Source of the DNA: CBDUXZ01 sp965371325 [NCBI: uncultured bacterium] | GTDB lineage: Bacteria > JAUYMQ01 | Direction of reading: 5' to 3' | DNA length: 5,497 bases | Assembly (NCBI GenBank): GCA_965371325.1 | Contig: CBDUXZ010000156.1 | Location: 1 to 5,497, forward strand | Shown: piece by piece, positions 1-5,497 of the stretch | Position numbering within the stretch: position 1 is the stretch's first letter | How the letters are laid out: every line of letters starts with the position of its first letter | Notes under the pieces: generated by a model | Seen by the model: only the letters and a program-made list of their open reading frames with translations | What the model was told of the DNA's origin: nothing | Database searches by the model: none | Made by a program: the position numbers and the translations under genes

Positions 1-876
1 CTCTTCCCGAAAGATGTTCCCCTTCATCAGCTCGACATCGTTCTGATATTGCGTGTTAAAGACTGTGGTGCCCATCTGCTCTCGGCGTTCTTCGAGCCAC
101 TCCAGCGAAAACTTCTCGGGCCACGGCGTCGAGCCCTCCGCCTCAATAGCCCGGATGATCTGGTGCTTCTCGGCGAACTCGTTGCGGATCAGATGGCCGT
201 AGAGATCGAGGTAGTGGTAGCGCGTGCCGACAATGTAGAGCCGCCCATCCGGCTCCAGGCAAGGGAGCAGCGTCTTGTAATACCAGGTCCGGACCTTCTC
301 ACGCTGCCCCTCGGTCCGGGCGTTCACCTCGTCCACCAGGTCGTCCGCGATGATGAGATCGTAGTGGCGGGAGGCCACGGGGCCTTCCACCCCTGCGCAG
401 GTGATCGTGGACTCTTTCGCGGCACTGGTCCTCGGAGCCACGCAGATCTCGCGGCTGTCCCACTTCTCGTCCGAGTAGAACTCCCCGAAGTATTCCTTGA
501 GCCGGGCGTTGTGCTGGAGGTGAATTTTGATCTCCCGCAGGAATACGTCCGCCTGGAGCTGGGTGTTCGAGGCGATGAGGATGCGCAGGTTCGGGTCGCG
601 GACGATCTCAAAGATGCAGCGCGCGATGGTGAGAATAGTCGATTTACCGAAGCCTCGGGGTGCGAGCTGGAGGCACGCGTCAGGGGCCGCTGACTGAAAG
701 GTGATCATCTCGGTATGGAAAGGCCGGACTTCGTAGCTCAAAATCTCGGTGGCGAGTACCTCAAGGCGCCCGTCCTCGAGGACTTCTCGCCGAACCAGCT
801 CCATCCGGACCGCCCGCAAGGCCGCGACCGTGCGTGCGACGTCTTCAGATGACGATTGCGTAAAATCAGTTCCCAC
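1..876 (-). CDS. Phage terminase large subunit, N-terminal ATPase part (truncated by window edge)
   Basis: This is the motor ATPase that drives DNA into the procapsid; the family also carries a C-terminal nuclease that cuts the concatemer. I translated 292 residues from the minus strand; the frame is open to base 1, so the C-terminus and the nuclease domain lie outside. Visible motifs: Walker A APRGFGKST at residues 72-80, Walker B DLIIADD at about 173-179, a VGTRYH coupling-type motif at 216-221, and FNTQYQND at 273-280, like the segment linking ATPase and nuclease domains in many large terminases. I chose the GTG at 876-874 because AGAGGG lies 5 bases upstream; an ATG at 804 would remove 24 residues before the motifs and has less support. 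The gene begins 38 bases after the probable small-subunit gene, the usual terS-terL order. The terminase assignment is firm; the exact start is less so. Confidence 0.93.
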   Translation of the reverse strand, partial: MGTDFTQSSSEDVARTVAALRAVRMELVRREVLEDGRLEVLATEILSYEVRPFHTEMITFQSAAPDACLQLAPRGFGKSTILTIARCIFEIVRDPNLRILIASNTQLQADVFLREIKIHLQHNARLKEYFGEFYSDEKWDSREICVAPRTSAAKESTITCAGVEGPVASRHYDLIIADDLVDEVNARTEGQREKVRTWYYKTLLPCLEPDGRLYIVGTRYHYLDLYGHLIRNEFAEKHQIIRAIEAEGSTPWPEKFSLEWLEERREQMGTTVFNTQYQNDVELMKGNIFREE

Positions 877-1447: not shown

Positions 1448-2074
1448 CTACCCTCCTTCCGAGAGGTAGGACCGGCAGACATCGAGCAGCGCCCGCCCCC
1501 TCGAAGTCCCCGGACCTCCCTTGGCCTGGGCCGTCCCGAGGGCGGCTTCGATGGGAGCAGGGTCGTCCACGACGAAGGACAGGATCTGCGGCCGCTCCCG
1601 CTCCGCCCGCTCTACTTCTCCGTCGAGGTAGGCCTTGAGACCATCGGGGACCTTCAGGACTTCGAGCACATCTGTCAGCTCGGCCGAGGAATACGGGAGT
1701 TGCGTGGCCAGATCGTCCAGGGAGACCTCACGGCTGAGGTCGTGGATGAGCTGTGCCAGGAGCTCCGGGAGCGACTGGCCCTTCAGCTCGTTCAGGTTCA
1801 CGGAAAGAACCTTGGCTCGCTGGTCGTCCAGATCGACGACCACGCACGGGACGCTCTCGTAGCCGAGCTCTTCTCGGCAGATTTTCCATCGGTGATAGCC
1901 CCCGAGGATCTCGTACGCCTCTCCCCTGGGGCGCACCACGAGGGGCTCGACGAGGCCCTCGCGCCGGAGGTATTCCAGGAGCTTGTGATACATCTCCGGG
2001 GCCATCCGGTTCGGGTTCCACGGGTTCGGATTAAGCTTTTCAACGGGCAGTTCGACTACTTCAAGCGCGTTCAT
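1448..2074 (-). CDS. ParB/sulfiredoxin-fold (ParB-N-like) phage protein
   Basis: This 208-residue protein has a ParB-N-like domain at about residues 8-100. It contains ELPVEKLNPNPWNPNRM, then a strand-helix region ending EPLVVRPRGEAYEILGGYHRW. GGYHRW (58-63) corresponds to the G-E/G-x-R box that binds CTP in chromosomal ParB and ATP in sulfiredoxin-like members. The remainder is helical up to about 150, followed by ILSFVVDD (164-171) and a variable tail. It lacks the long DNA-binding and dimerisation domains of true partition ParB, and no ParA is visible. Stand-alone phage versions often neighbour DNA methyltransferases and are suspected to act in DNA modification or as nucleases. The ATG at 2074 is chosen over an in-frame ATG at 2146 because GGGAGG precedes it and it forms an ATGA overlap with the methylase stop. 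The fold is clear; the biochemical role is unknown. Confidence 0.85.
   Translation of the reverse strand: MNALEVVELPVEKLNPNPWNPNRMAPEMYHKLLEYLRREGLVEPLVVRPRGEAYEILGGYHRWKICREELGYESVPCVVVDLDDQRAKVLSVNLNELKGQSLPELLAQLIHDLSREVSLDDLATQLPYSSAELTDVLEVLKVPDGLKAYLDGEVERAERERPQILSFVVDDPAPIEAALGTAQAKGGPGTSRGRALLDVCRSYLSEGG
1452..1458 (-). promoter_or_regulatory. Ribosome binding site inside the end of the ParB-like gene, for the small terminase GTG start
   Basis: Minus-strand AAGGAGG lies 6 bases before GTG 1445-1443 and within the last codons of the ParB-like gene (stop TAG at 1450-1448). The strong site supports a GTG start and coupling between the two genes. Confidence 0.65.
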
Positions 2075-3096
2075 CCTTTCCTCCCTGCGATGATGAGAAG
2101 TTCCCGGTTGCGCTCCCGGTGCGCCGCGCCAGCAAGACCGGTGCAATGCACATACTCGATCGCCTCGGCGTGTTGAACAGGCCGGAACTTCTCCACAAGC
2201 CCCACCAGCGCCTCCAGCGAAGTCTGGGCATTGCCGTAGGAGATGACCCAGGCGGGAAAATGCGATCCTCGATCGAGCAGCTCGCCCAATGCATGCAGAC
2301 CGTCTTTCCCCGAAAACCGGCTGCGCTCGGGCTTAAGCCGGCGGCCGGCCAGAATTTCATCGAGGGGTCGGAGCGCCGTCTCGTACGCTTGGGTTCCGGG
2401 ATAGGGCGGATCCAGGTAGAGGATGTCGCCCTCCGTCTCTTGCACCAGCGTGAAGGCGTCCCGCTGGTGGACCGTGTTTCGTTGACCGTTCGAGAAGACC
2501 CCCCGGTTCACCTGCTGTCGAAGCTTCTCGACCAGCGCCAGCGGATGGCCATGAACCGTTCGGGCCAGGGCGTCCCGGACGTAATGGGGATTCATGGCCT
2601 CCCAGTCCCCGCTCTCCATCTGCCGCACGATGCGCTTCGCTCCAAAATTGCCCATCGGACGGCAGCGGAGGATGTACTTCATGAGGAGGAGCAGGAAGAG
2701 AGAGCGTTTGGGCTCAGGGGCAGAGCGGGCCACGATCAGCGCGTCATCGAGAAACCCCGCATGCTTCCTCGTCAACACATCCGGGGCGAAGTTTTTCTGG
2801 ACGAAACCCTCCGCCGCTGGATGGGACACGAATAGGCGGAGCGAGTCGGCTTCGGTGAGTGTCACGCGATCGTTTTCGATGAGCGCCCGCCCGGCGATGA
2901 CGGAGCGTTCGGCCAGGTCGTTACACACGACGCGATAGCCCCGGGCCTTGGCACCCAAGGACACGGCACCACCGCCCAAAAACGCGTCCACGAAGACCGG
3001 CGCTTCTGTGGGCTTCGGAAGATGCTTGAAAATCTGGCCGAGCAGTCTTCGCTTGCCACCGGCATAGGGAGGCAGCGCGCTCAGAAGGAGCCGCAT
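2071..3096 (-). CDS. D12-class (Dam-like) adenine-N6 DNA methyltransferase
   Basis: The enzyme transfers a methyl group from S-adenosylmethionine to adenine N6 in DNA. In its 341 residues I see PYAGGKRRL (10-18), the N-terminal motif X typical of alpha-class D12 enzymes; FVDAFLGGGAVSL (35-47), motif I of the AdoMet pocket; ND at 59-60; and LYLDPPYPG (226-234), with the catalytic DPPY. WVISYGNA (283-290) fits a later core strand. Residues about 100-210 would hold the target-recognition region, including a hydrophobic RSLFLLLLMKYILR. The order X-I-TRD-IV is the alpha class. ATG 3096 follows AGGAGG at 5-base spacing. The stop overlaps the ParB-like ATG by 4 bases. No restriction partner is visible, so this is probably an orphan phage methylase for protecting phage DNA or for regulation. 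The target sequence cannot be read from the protein by eye. Confidence 0.93.
   Translation of the reverse strand: MRLLLSALPPYAGGKRRLLGQIFKHLPKPTEAPVFVDAFLGGGAVSLGAKARGYRVVCNDLAERSVIAGRALIENDRVTLTEADSLRLFVSHPAAEGFVQKNFAPDVLTRKHAGFLDDALIVARSAPEPKRSLFLLLLMKYILRCRPMGNFGAKRIVRQMESGDWEAMNPHYVRDALARTVHGHPLALVEKLRQQVNRGVFSNGQRNTVHQRDAFTLVQETEGDILYLDPPYPGTQAYETALRPLDEILAGRRLKPERSRFSGKDGLHALGELLDRGSHFPAWVISYGNAQTSLEALVGLVEKFRPVQHAEAIEYVHCTGLAGAAHRERNRELLIIAGRKG
2080..2084 (-). promoter_or_regulatory. Ribosome binding site deciding the ParB-like start
   Basis: Minus-strand GGAGG lies 5 bases before ATG 2074-2072 and within the last codons of the methylase gene. It rules against the longer 232-residue reading from ATG 2146, whose extra 24 residues run antiparallel to nothing conserved and are simply methylase codons in another frame. 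Confidence 0.65.
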
Positions 3097-3199: not shown

Positions 3200-3568
3200 T
3201 CACCAGCTCGCAAGAAGCGCAAACACGTCGCATCGCGCGCACTGCCAGCGACCCCCCATGGGGCGTGCCGGGTGACGCGCGTTGTCCAGCCTTCCCGCCG
3301 GACCGCCGAAGTCGTGCCAAAGTGTGCATTCCTTCTCGTACGCGGCCTTGGCGGAGGCGTAATAGGCGAATTTGAACTGCCGGTACCGGCCGATCCAATC
3401 CTTAAGGCGCTCTGCAAGGTCCAGGTCGGAGCGCCCGACGTACCGGATGACAAAGTTCGGCCCTTGCGTCTCACCCAGCGCGTACACTCCCGGAGACGTG
3501 CGGATCAGGTGTCGGTCGATGACGGCGGCGGCGAGATATAAAGGGCCATGAAGGCCTGAGATGGACAT
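3200..3568 (-). CDS. Small GIY-YIG-like nuclease-fold protein with C-terminal CxxC
   Basis: This is the first gene of the leftward operon, with 122 residues. PGVYAL (26-31) and IRYVGRSD (41-48), followed by LAERL (51-55), match the GIY...YIG strands and the conserved Arg helix of GIY-YIG nucleases. E80 in YEKEC could be the metal-binding Glu, and LDN at 94-96 a late conserved Asn. After the core comes HDFGG, LDNARHPARP and WQCARC (108-113). With C81 and H85, the CxxC could form a small zinc site. Stand-alone phage GIY-YIG proteins include homing and repair-type nucleases, but a domain this short may be non-catalytic. ATG 3568 follows a G-rich stretch (seven Gs, then ACGAAAG), an atypical ribosome site; GGAGGAA lies further upstream in a possible small hairpin loop (stem 3580-3584 with 3592-3596). 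The fold is likely; activity is not shown. Confidence 0.65.
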   Translation of the reverse strand: MSISGLHGPLYLAAAVIDRHLIRTSPGVYALGETQGPNFVIRYVGRSDLDLAERLKDWIGRYRQFKFAYYASAKAAYEKECTLWHDFGGPAGRLDNARHPARPMGGRWQCARCDVFALLASW

Positions 3569-3625
3569 CTTTCGTCCCCCCCGGTTCCTCCCCGGGTGGC
3601 ATGAGGGTGAGCGTCGGTTTCCTTT

Positions 3626-3654
3626 TTCCTACAGGATCGGGGAAGGTTTGTCAA
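3626..3654 (-). promoter_or_regulatory. Leftward promoter for the GIY-YIG/methylase/terminase operon
   Basis: Minus strand: a perfect -35 TTGACA (3654-3649), a 17-base spacer, then TAGGAA (3631-3626) as a weak -10 matching 3 of 6. This leaves a leader of about 50 bases before ATG 3568. The perfect -35 with a poor -10 is compatible with a promoter needing activation or kept low. The -35 abuts the operator half-sites, so repressor bound there should block it. Confidence 0.55.
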
Positions 3655-3706
3655 GCATTACCGTCGTCACATCAGTAACGACAGCATTACTGTCGATATT
3701 AACGCT
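3655..3706. promoter_or_regulatory. Operator cluster of four alternating CRTTAM half-sites
   Basis: Between the two -35 boxes lie four copies of a CRTTAM hexamer (M = A or C) in alternating orientation: CATTAC (plus, 3656-3661), CGTTAC (minus, 3680-3675), CATTAC (plus, 3685-3690) and CGTTAA (minus, 3704-3699). They make two dyads centred near 3668 and 3694.5. The second is AGCATTACTG, TCGA, TATTAACGCT (7 of 10 arm positions symmetric). The direct repeats GCATTACCGTCG and GCATTACTGTCG (3655 and 3684) match at 11 of 12, offset by 29 bases. A perfect dyad, CGACAG-CATTA-CTGTCG, sits at 3679-3695. The block is visibly richer in A+T than the genes. The likely ligand is the adjacent XRE protein. Confidence 0.6.
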
Positions 3707-3735
3707 TGACAGCCCGCACGGCCCCGGGCTACAAC
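3706..3735 (+). promoter_or_regulatory. Rightward promoter for the repressor-protease pair, predicted leaderless
   Basis: A perfect -35 TTGACA (3706-3711), 18 bases, then TACAAC (3730-3735, 4 of 6 matches to TATAAT). Transcription should begin about 7 bases later, at 3742-3743, which is the A of the repressor ATG. No Shine-Dalgarno sequence lies between; the bases before the ATG are CTCCTCTC. The -35 touches the rightmost operator half-site, so the repressor probably governs its own synthesis. Confidence 0.6.
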
Positions 3736-3742
3736 TCCTCTC

Positions 3743-4102
3743 ATGAAGTCTCCCCTTGAGCCCTTCTACACGGACTTCGGGCAGCGCCTGCGGCAGCTCC
3801 GCTCGGGGAAACGTCTGTCCCAGGAAGAGCTCGGCGGCCGCCTCGCGCCCCCCCTCACACCCGCTTCCAGCGCCCAAATCGAGTCCGCCCAACAACGCGT
3901 CCTCACGCACACGCTCTGCCAGCTCGCGGATGCCCTGGGCGTCAGCCCCCTCCACCTCCTCCCCAAGCAGAGCGTCCCGAAGGCCGAGCCCCTGGACCGC
4001 CGGAAACTTGAAAACGAACTGACCCAAGGGCTTGAGCTGCCCCGCACGAAAATAAAACGACTTGCCAAACGGATCAGCGGTTCTGGGAGGAGGAGATCAT
4101 GA
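3743..4102 (+). CDS. XRE-family helix-turn-helix repressor (probable lysogeny regulator)
   Basis: This 119-residue cytoplasmic DNA-binding protein has an XRE domain at about 12-73: FGQRLRQLRSGKRLSQEELG, a recognition region around TPASSAQIESAQQ, then TLCQLADALGVSPLHLL. The turn between helices 2 and 3 is longer and more Pro-rich than usual (LAPPLTPASS). The C-terminal 45 residues (about 74-119) are charged and basic, with LDRRKLENELTQ and TKIKRLAKR; there is no LexA/CI-type autocleavage domain. Relief of repression must therefore come from outside, and the overlapping protease gene is the natural candidate. The ATG at 3743 lacks a ribosome site, consistent with a leaderless message. It is divergent from the packaging operon across a shared operator region, as expected for a CI- or ImmR-like role. 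The family is certain; the lysogeny role is inferred from position. Confidence 0.88.
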   Translation: MKSPLEPFYTDFGQRLRQLRSGKRLSQEELGGRLAPPLTPASSAQIESAQQRVLTHTLCQLADALGVSPLHLLPKQSVPKAEPLDRRKLENELTQGLELPRTKIKRLAKRISGSGRRRS

Positions 4103-4626
4103 CTGTTCGCTTCGCGCGAGTGCAGGCCGAGAATCTCGTCGATGAATTAGAAATTGTGGGTCCCGAAGTAGACGTTGAAGACGTGGCCAGGAAATTGGGG
4201 ATCGAGGTGGGCTACGAGGATCTGGGACCGGGAGTCTCGGGGCTCCTCGTGTCAAGTCCCGATACGGCGCACATCTTGGTTCAAGGGTCCGACCCTCCGC
4301 ATCGGCAGCGGTTTACGATTGCCCATGAAATCGGGCATTTTGTGCTTCGCCACCAGTTCGAGGAGGGAAAACACGTTCATGTGGACCGGGGCAATTTCAT
4401 CAGTCAGCGCGGCCCCCAGGCCTCCACGGGCATTGACCCCAAGGAGGTCGAAGCGAACCAGTTTGCGGCCTGTCTCCTCATGCCTTCGAAGCGATTGACG
4501 AAGGCGGCCGCGCGGGTCGCCGAGGGAGGGCCGCTCTTCGACGACCACGTCACGCGCCTTGCGGAAGAATTCAACGTCAGCGAGCAGGCCATGACGATCC
4601 GCCTCACAAAGTTAGACCTGCTCTGA
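4099..4626 (+). CDS. ImmA/IrrE-family zinc metallopeptidase (probable anti-repressor protease)
   Basis: The protein has 175 residues. FTIAHEIGHFVLRH contains the HExxH zinc site (H76, E77, H80). EVEANQFAACLLMP (116-129) is the family's second signature; a Glu there (E116 or E118) should be the third zinc ligand. The C-terminal LAEEFNVSEQAMTIRLTKL resembles the HTH-like helices that close many family members. In ICEBs1, ImmA cuts the ImmR repressor to trigger induction. Here the gene overlaps the XRE gene by 4 bases (ATGA), with GGAGGAGGAGATC before the ATG, so protease and substrate would be made together. That the adjacent XRE protein is the substrate is inference from this known pairing. 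The gene ends 15 bases before the stop of the convergent gene at 4642. Confidence 0.92.
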   Translation: MTVRFARVQAENLVDELEIVGPEVDVEDVARKLGIEVGYEDLGPGVSGLLVSSPDTAHILVQGSDPPHRQRFTIAHEIGHFVLRHQFEEGKHVHVDRGNFISQRGPQASTGIDPKEVEANQFAACLLMPSKRLTKAAARVAEGGPLFDDHVTRLAEEFNVSEQAMTIRLTKLDLL

Positions 4627-4641: not shown

Positions 4642-5064
4642 TCAAGCCTTCGAATCGAAGCCAAGCCTCCGGCGCTGCTCCTCCCACAAGACTGGCGCCT
4701 TCATCAAATCATCGATCGATAGGCCGCTCGGTTCCCGGCCCTCGAATATGGCCTCGACAATATCGGGCGCCAGGAGTGTCAAGCGCAGCTGCCGCCGCAC
4801 ATAGGCTTCATCGGCCTCAAAATGCATCGCCAACCCTGAGACCCTTCGAAACGCTCTCCCCTCCAGCAGCTCTAGCCATTGGTGGGCTCTTGCTACCGCG
4901 CGTGCCATGGCGGCGTTCGTACCTGCACAGGCCCCATTCCCCTGGTTATCCCGCGGCAGGATGATCTGCTTGCGCCCACCCCGGCGCTTGAAACGCATGG
5001 GTACCCGGATGAGGGCTCGCCCATCTTGCAGAACAAGAGATCCCGGTGACACCTCGTCCTTCAT
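4642..5064 (-). CDS. Recombinase-linked small putative DNA-binding protein
   Basis: The 140-residue protein is encoded directly downstream of the serine recombinase with an ATGA overlap, and GGAGGTGA lies just before its ATG. The N-terminal part (about 8-38) is basic and strand-like: ALIRVPMRFKRRGGRKQIILP. Residues about 54-70 are helical (ARAVARAHQWLELLEGR). SGLAMHFEADEAYVRRQLRLTLLAPDIVEAIFEGREP (76-112) reads as a helix-turn-helix similar to the C-terminal part of ParB/KorB-like domains. The LAPDIVEAI...GL...LLM...WEEQR pattern recurs in small proteins next to serine recombinases in GC-rich proteobacterial islands, mostly annotated hypothetical. It may be a directionality factor, an accessory recombination protein or an integrase regulator. 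The function is unproven; the pairing is the main clue. Confidence 0.8.
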   Translation of the reverse strand: MKDEVSPGSLVLQDGRALIRVPMRFKRRGGRKQIILPRDNQGNGACAGTNAAMARAVARAHQWLELLEGRAFRRVSGLAMHFEADEAYVRRQLRLTLLAPDIVEAIFEGREPSGLSIDDLMKAPVLWEEQRRRLGFDSKA

Positions 5065-5497
5065 CGACTCACCTCCGCTTCGCCTCCTCCCTCCAGCTCC
5101 GTGATGAGCGAGCGCATCCCCTTCACCCGCACGGCTATCTCAAGACCCGCTTCACCCACCGCGACCCCATCGAGAACCTGCCTGACGATCCGCCCCCGCT
5201 CCACGGGGAAAAGGTCCTCCCACAAGTCCTCCAGGCAGGCCGCCGCTTCGCGAACACGGAGCGCGGCGGTGAGGCGCCGCACACGCTGATCTTCCGAGCC
5301 CCTTCGCCCATTTCGTTCCTTGGGGGAGCCCTCTGCAGAGCGGGTTGAATCCTCGGCCGGCCCCGCGAGGATGCGGGTGAGCCGATCGGGCGATCGGAAG
5401 AGGCCCCGCAGCTGCGTGATAACGACCCCTTCTAGTTCTCCTGCCGCCACACGCCCGATCGGGCAGGCCCCGGCCCCGAACTTCGCAGCTTTCATGC
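5061..5497 (-). CDS. Large serine recombinase, C-terminal end only (truncated by window edge)
   Basis: The visible 144 codons enter from the right edge; the Met near 5495 is internal, not a start. The first two minus-strand bases are GC, so the preceding codon could be TGC, the Cys usually found in a YVC-type zinc-ribbon strand before MKAAKFGAGACPIGRVAAGELE. CPIGRV then supplies the next Cys, and GELEGVVITQLRGLF follows, the typical end of the zinc ribbon and start of the coiled-coil/helical tail in phage-type large serine recombinases. DLWEDLFPVERGRIVRQVLDGVAV (about residues 90-113 of the visible part) and the strand GLEIAVRVKGMRSLITEL are also characteristic. The catalytic resolvase domain must lie beyond the window. 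It probably integrates and excises this element. The link to this phage rather than a neighbouring island is by proximity only. Confidence 0.87.
   Translation of the reverse strand, partial: MKAAKFGAGACPIGRVAAGELEGVVITQLRGLFRSPDRLTRILAGPAEDSTRSAEGSPKERNGRRGSEDQRVRRLTAALRVREAAACLEDLWEDLFPVERGRIVRQVLDGVAVGEAGLEIAVRVKGMRSLITELEGGGEAEVSR

Follow-up and report, generated by a model that had tools for sequence, protein, structure and literature searches.

Repressor-protease switches are a known kind of regulatory module. ImmR of ICEBs1 reportedly occupies six sites that span both divergent promoters, and cleavage by ImmA inactivates it (PMC8960796); CapP cleaves CapH (PMC10233336) and is stimulated by single-stranded DNA (PMC10233336, PMC13373217); and IrrE cleaves DdrO (PMC8072749). 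XRE regulators are also described as often binding palindromic DNA that precedes the gene encoding them (PMC12565409). The association of such switches with immunity is likewise already known, since 219 of 544 Bub operons are reported to be associated with either CapW or CapH and CapP (PMC13373217). Here we describe an intergenic region that, in our view, probably holds the operators and divergent promoters of a repressor-protease module of the ImmR/ImmA (CapH/CapP-like) kind, serving as a phage or prophage immunity switch, and comparison with relatives allows the likely binding site of this branch to be named.

The window, that is, the whole stretch of 5,497 nt analyzed (62% G+C), looks like phage or prophage DNA. 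Its minus strand carries the genes of a terminase large subunit, which runs off the window (1-876), and of a terminase small subunit (915-1445), followed in the leftward block by a ParB-like gene (1448-2146), a D12-class adenine methylase gene (2071-3096), and the first leftward gene (3200-3568), which encodes 122 amino acids. The latter returned no family at useful E-values and only two weak matches in a search for relatives; it may resemble GIY-YIG-type proteins. Facing away from these phage genes, the plus strand encodes an XRE repressor of 119 amino acids with an HTH_31 domain and a C-terminal helical hairpin (3743-4102), followed directly, with an overlap of 4 bases, by an ImmA/IrrE-type M78 metalloprotease of 175 amino acids with an HEIGH motif (4099-4626). 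To the right of the pair lie two further minus-strand open reading frames, the first of which corresponds to phrog_14161, named "recombinase"; the frame at 5061-5495, for which family searches gave no match, looks like the C terminus of a large serine recombinase. The terminase subunits, the ParB-like protein, and the recombinase-named phrog_14161 provide the mobile-element setting of such a switch.

Between the divergent genes, positions 3655-3706 had been flagged in a first-pass annotation for four copies of a hexamer, CRTTAM, alternating in orientation between two perfect -35 boxes. All four are present, at 3656-3661 (+), 3675-3680 (-), 3685-3690 (+), and 3699-3704 (-), and the window contains only two others, at 2581 and 2919. 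Four copies within 52 bp are not due to chance: at least four were found in none of 5,000 dinucleotide shuffles of 3641-3711 and in one of 5,000 of 3569-3742, and a 52-bp stretch with four of them appeared in none of 500 shuffles of the whole window. The 8-base inverted repeat reported with the hexamers is perfect as well, with arms TGTCAAGC (3649-3656) and GCTTGACA (3704-3711) centered on 3680 and each containing TTGACA. An inverted-repeat search brought out a further element that the annotation lacked, the palindrome CGACAG-CATTA-CTGTCG at 3679-3695, centered on 3687 and with perfect 6-base arms. An RNA element in the flagged stretch was ruled out, as Rfam gave no match, and so was an intrinsic terminator, the sole candidate for which lies at 4320-4337.

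As for the two promoters that had been assumed, both TTGACA -35 boxes are perfect, but the -10 boxes are imperfect and a consensus promoter scan of the window found no promoter. The leftward -35 box (3649-3654, minus strand) has as its best -10 candidate TAGGAA (3626-3631), a poor one, with three of six positions and a 17-bp spacer. The -35 box of the XRE promoter (3706-3711, plus strand) is followed, after an 18-bp spacer, by the likely -10 box TACAAC (3730-3735, four of six positions), which ends 7 nt before the ATG. The best -10 candidates, those of the relatives described below included, leave 7 to 9 nt to the start codon (in L206, candidates at 5 and 7 nt are tied), from which we predict a repressor mRNA with no leader or almost none; the lambda cI mRNA made from PRM is likewise leaderless. 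A G+C-rich inverted repeat, AGCCCG-N8-CGGGCT (3711-3730), occupies the spacer of the XRE promoter.

Relatives of the module were found by protein and never by DNA motif, their upstream DNA playing no part in the selection. A protease scan of bacterial genomes yielded five loci, L019 to L023, with protease identities of 51-59% among the 80 of 144 relatives kept, and in each of them an XRE gene lies upstream of the protease gene, with 36-41% identity in the matched segment. In all, 98 loci were scanned and 18 had an XRE match; we refer to the best five (L019 to L023) as close relatives and to the others as distant ones. Searches with a profile of the XRE alignment added two loci, L191/L205 and L193/L206. 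With seed genomes included, this profile found 2 of 396, 1 of 43, 2 of 195, and 1 of 385 genomes in the four sets, and the protease profile found 2 of 396 and 1 of 398. These profile searches scored 8 to 23 candidates per genome, except for the XRE search of 43 genomes, and the two loci were the only new ones; none of the relatives found retains the divergent phage gene. The XRE genes of L021, L022, and L206 start with GTG, and positions in L023 are approximate, since no start codon stands at the assigned start, 3645, and a GTG lies 6 nt past it.

Motif discovery was carried out with our own script, which sought one palindromic site per sequence in the 300 bp upstream of the seven relatives, the window being excluded. 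The motif found de novo is a palindrome, approximately GACAG-YANTR-CTGTC, with a score of 127.2, versus 91.7 ± 3.3 and a maximum of 99.0 in 20 shuffled sets. All seven training regions contain sites of the GACAG-N5-CTGTC type, the poorest in L020/L207 and L023; they are exemplified by GACAGTAATACTGTC (L191/L205), GACAGTACTGCTGTC (L022), and GTCAGCAATACTGAC (L019). A literature search for the literal string GACAGTAATACTGTC gave no match, within a coverage that leaves out the key reports on CapH/CapP and on ICEBs1 ImmR, so that the operator may still be a published one.

When the 5,497 bases of the window are scored with this motif, the two best matches both fall in the flagged stretch, at 3680-3694 (21.8) and 3651-3665 (9.7). 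The first marks the palindrome at 3679-3695, which we name O2, the central and strongest predicted operator; its score exceeds the maximum of 15.8 reached in 300 shuffled windows. The second, O1 (3651-3665), is a predicted operator that overlaps the leftward -35 box and is placed as in L021; by chance, 0.008 matches of this strength would be expected in the intergenic region and 0.29 in the window. Two weaker candidates are not significant alone, namely O3 (3695-3709; score 2.4, eighth in rank, strength expected 0.24 times by chance in the intergenic region), which overlaps the -35 box of the XRE promoter, and a doubtful fourth site overlapping O2 (3668-3682; score 4.5, fourth in rank, expected 0.10 times). 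The third-ranked match, at the XRE/protease junction (4093-4107, score 5.7), was taken as a chance match, and those ranking fifth to seventh also lie outside the flagged stretch. The motif thus predicts several operators over both divergent promoters, O2 being strong, O1 good, and O3 weak. The proposal that the flagged stretch is an operator region spanning both divergent -35 boxes is supported by these sites, predicted from the relatives' motif, and the region most likely belongs to the XRE repressor encoded next to it.

Three of the four hexamers are the centers of predicted operators (3658, 3687, and 3702), and the remaining one, at 3675-3680, extends into the left arm of O2. The first-pass annotation had instead taken CRTTAM as the recognition unit, such that the hexamers would be half-sites at which two XRE complexes bind cooperatively about 3680 and silence both promoters equally. 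Four copies in 52 bp, far beyond chance and specific to the window, are what this model would lead one to expect, and the changed recognition helix of the window XRE, described below, could have moved its preference toward them. Yet the hexamer is present upstream of only one of the seven relatives, the palindrome is what recurs, in seven of seven, and the strongest site (center 3687) sits 7 bp off the symmetry point at 3680; we consider the half-site model distinctly unlikely. The earlier interpretation is therefore only partly supported, being right in kind and wrong in unit.

The placing of the sites in the relatives has counterparts in the window. L019, L021, L022, L205, and L206 each have a TTGACA or TTGATA box 36 to 39 nt upstream of the XRE start and a site whose first base is 11 nt ahead of that box; in the window, the -35 box of the XRE promoter lies at -37, and the weak O3 has the same 11-nt offset. 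The form found at the repressor's own promoter, G[AT]CAG-N5-CTTGACA, is an operator half-site fused with the -35 box, and TTGACA is absent from the expected place in L207 and L023. The 8-base inverted repeat is explained by the fact that GCTTGACA consists of the -35 box and the two bases preceding it, on both sides. Abutting sites lie at -61 and -46 in L207 and at -63 and -48 in the window, and in L021 the left site over the opposed -35 box is placed as in the window, 30 bp from the next site (29 bp in the window). The candidate sites appear to be regularly spaced, by about 15 bp.

This left site scores 11.3 in L021, 9.7 in the window, and 4.8 in L207, the last being biased upward because the motif includes a site from each relative. 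It is stronger than the site at the right -35 box both in the window (9.7 versus 2.4) and in L021 (11.3 versus 6.0, each relative having been left out in turn for the scan of offsets and placings). L019 and L022 differ in that their strong -35 site lies at the promoter of the repressor itself (15.6 and 13.3, obtained in the same leave-one-out scan), and the opposed box scores -6.9 and -5.0. No good site was found at the opposed -35 boxes of L019, L022, L023, and L206, whose scores (-5.0 to -20.3) share the upward bias noted for L207, and L205 has no opposed box; control of the divergent promoter is therefore not universal in the family. The spacing of the opposed boxes varies widely among the relatives, and the exact symmetry of the -35 boxes that had been pointed out in the window is not a family property.

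Opposed boxes recur in more distant modules. We examined 75 loci, with start codons picked by script; 32 have an XRE gene next to the protease gene, and 31 were retained after one identical protein was dropped. Of these 31 distant XRE-ImmA loci, 11 have TTGAC 34 to 40 nt upstream of the XRE start (0.8% expected from shuffles), and 21 have GTCAA farther out, at most 160 nt from the start (9.6% expected). XRE-ImmA modules thus commonly have opposed -35 boxes, which are not in themselves a mark of symmetry. These counts bear on the idea that the repressor only regulates itself, as in toxin-antitoxin-like modules, the leftward TTGACA driving little or nothing. The poor leftward -10 box fits autoregulation, as do L019 and L022, with a strong -35 site on their own promoter and none on the opposed one; however, the left site of the window outscores the right one, and opposed -35 boxes are far commoner than expected in the distant loci. 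Autoregulation alone is, in our estimation, unlikely. By eye, a different palindrome, approximately AAACRYGTTT, is visible near the promoter upstream of the XRE genes of L025, L032, and L034. From their sequences, the operators seem to differ between branches of XRE-ImmA modules.

In viral sequences, a single-protein XRE search of viral contigs gave no confirmed match, and a repressor search of 50,697 phage and 72,556 plasmid records at 1e-5 gave no match. The XRE profile found three viral loci (L099 to L101), none with a motif site upstream. An XRE match at 1e-6 is present in 5 of 115 viral loci; a motif site lies upstream in one, L103, and in none of the other four, three of which have a recognition helix of the family type. 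L103 comes from a viral contig and contains a distant XRE-ImmA pair, the XRE of which is 31% identical to that of L019; its site, GTCAGTATTATTGAC (16.3), overlaps a TTGACA about 53 nt before the likely GTG start. Two palindromes are seen upstream in this locus (1041-1105), one resembling ATGTCA-N8-TGACAT and the other being GTCAGTATTATTGAC. Because there are six motif sites scoring at least 15 in the 850,026 bases of viral loci, a motif site near one of five viral XRE genes is suggestive and not strong. The exact 17-mer of L019 matches viral DNA once, within the coding sequence of an unrelated gene, which we regard as chance.

Searches with the terminases did not reach a phage family with the same switch: the small subunit gave one distant match, and the large subunit gave ten viral loci (L195 to L204, 39-56%), none of which has an XRE or protease gene, or any other window protein at an E-value of at most 0.01, in the stretch examined. 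On a 28.6-kb viral contig (L102, the contig of L001), positions 4001-4522 encode a protease 58% identical to that of the window, among the 80 of 158 matches listed. The XRE profile found nothing in this record, an empty answer that on a fragment shows little, and the target of this protease could be a repressor encoded elsewhere.

The window repressor itself departs from its family in one respect. Its recognition helix reads TPASSAQIE (3857-3883, codons 39-47 of the XRE gene), versus TR[AV][SA][IV]AN[IVL]E in all seven relatives, and its DNA preference may therefore have shifted. The central operator is of the family type despite the changed helix, which may mean that other residues read it, that the change is recent, or that another protein reads it. 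In this last case, O2 would be read mainly by a related repressor of the host or of another element, the phage XRE having lost or changed its site preference. A family-type palindrome next to a helix unlike that of any relative is consistent with such a foreign reader, but the window XRE is full length and is paired with an intact-looking protease, and we hold this explanation to be very unlikely. The structure model of the repressor (pLDDT, 79.7; pTM, 0.55) comprises a helix-turn-helix domain and a C-terminal helical hairpin; the best fold match is C.AhdI (37% over 65 columns), and DdrO comes third, with a root mean square deviation of 8.4. In PADLOC, the protease matches capP at 3.8e-35 over profile positions 7-153 of 242, and the repressor matches capH weakly at 2.2e-5, two restriction control-protein models scoring better (9.2e-7 and 5.5e-6). 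The C-terminal domain that capP has beyond M78 is absent from the window protease; IrrE also has further domains, unlike the window protease.

Some of the relatives are neighbors of immune-type genes. A multiubiquitin gene (4.9e-51) and a DUF6791/ThiF gene lie divergent to L021, and L019 is divergent to a gene without a Pfam match, beyond which lies a ThiF gene (2.1e-26). In L191, a type I methylase gene follows, and in L023, RepB/ParB and serine recombinase genes follow on the other strand. What we add is that the same predicted operator form stands upstream of immune-adjacent modules and of a phage's module. A bolder proposal is that one code, approximately GACAG-N5-CTGTC, is common to the phage immunity switch and the immune-adjacent switches, so that the modules read each other's operators. 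We consider this improbable; if true, a resident immune-island repressor could hold the lytic promoter of a phage, and a phage protease could trip the switch of the host.

Our working model of the phage or prophage switch is as follows. An XRE dimer would bind 15- to 17-bp palindromes of the GACAG-N5-CTGTC form and, if motif scores are a guide, would fill O2, then O1, and then O3. With O2 and O1 occupied, the leftward phage genes would be silenced, O1 covering the leftward -35 box, and the repressor would still be made, with a presumed role in lysogeny. The weak O3, over the repressor's own -35 box, would fill at high dose only and cap the repressor level. By analogy with the systems cited above, the cotranscribed M78 protease, activated presumably by DNA damage, would destroy the repressor and open both promoters. 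Against the switch stand the changed recognition helix, the poor left -10 box, the weakness of O3 and of the fourth site, the four viral XRE loci that have no site, and the shortened protease. The results nevertheless offer a defined candidate operator sequence, open to testing, for one branch of ImmR/ImmA-CapH/CapP-like switches, a branch with one member on a phage and others next to genes of immune type. They also predict a common promoter layout, in which the -35 box is fused to an operator half-site and the repressor mRNA is probably leaderless, and they reduce cross-talk between prophage and host immunity through such modules to a simple binding question.

Among the known systems, the C proteins of restriction-modification systems, represented by C.AhdI, offer the closest solved helix-turn-helix fold, a likeness that covers the helix-turn-helix part only. 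Their operators have GAC/GTC arms, and they are not known to have a protease partner. DdrO/IrrE (PprI) of Deinococcus shares with the window an XRE repressor with a helical C-terminal domain, a palindromic operator at the promoter, and an M78 protease, but DdrO controls about 20 scattered genes, many of them for DNA repair (PMC8072749). For the CapH/CapP pairs of immune operons, CBASS and Bub among them, capP is the closest named defense model for the window protease, although the latter covers only the part of capP given above; furthermore, the window neighbors are phage genes with no adjacent immune operon, whereas the relative L021 has one. ICEBs1 of Bacillus subtilis differs in its divergent genes, which are xis and conjugation genes, whereas those of the window are a gene of uncharacterized function, a methylase gene, a ParB-like gene, and the terminase genes. 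As described, ImmR/ImmA of ICEBs1 is nevertheless alike in combining an XRE repressor with an M78 antirepressor protease on a mobile element and in placing several operators over both divergent promoters, a likeness of arrangement between described sites and those predicted in the window (PMC8960796).
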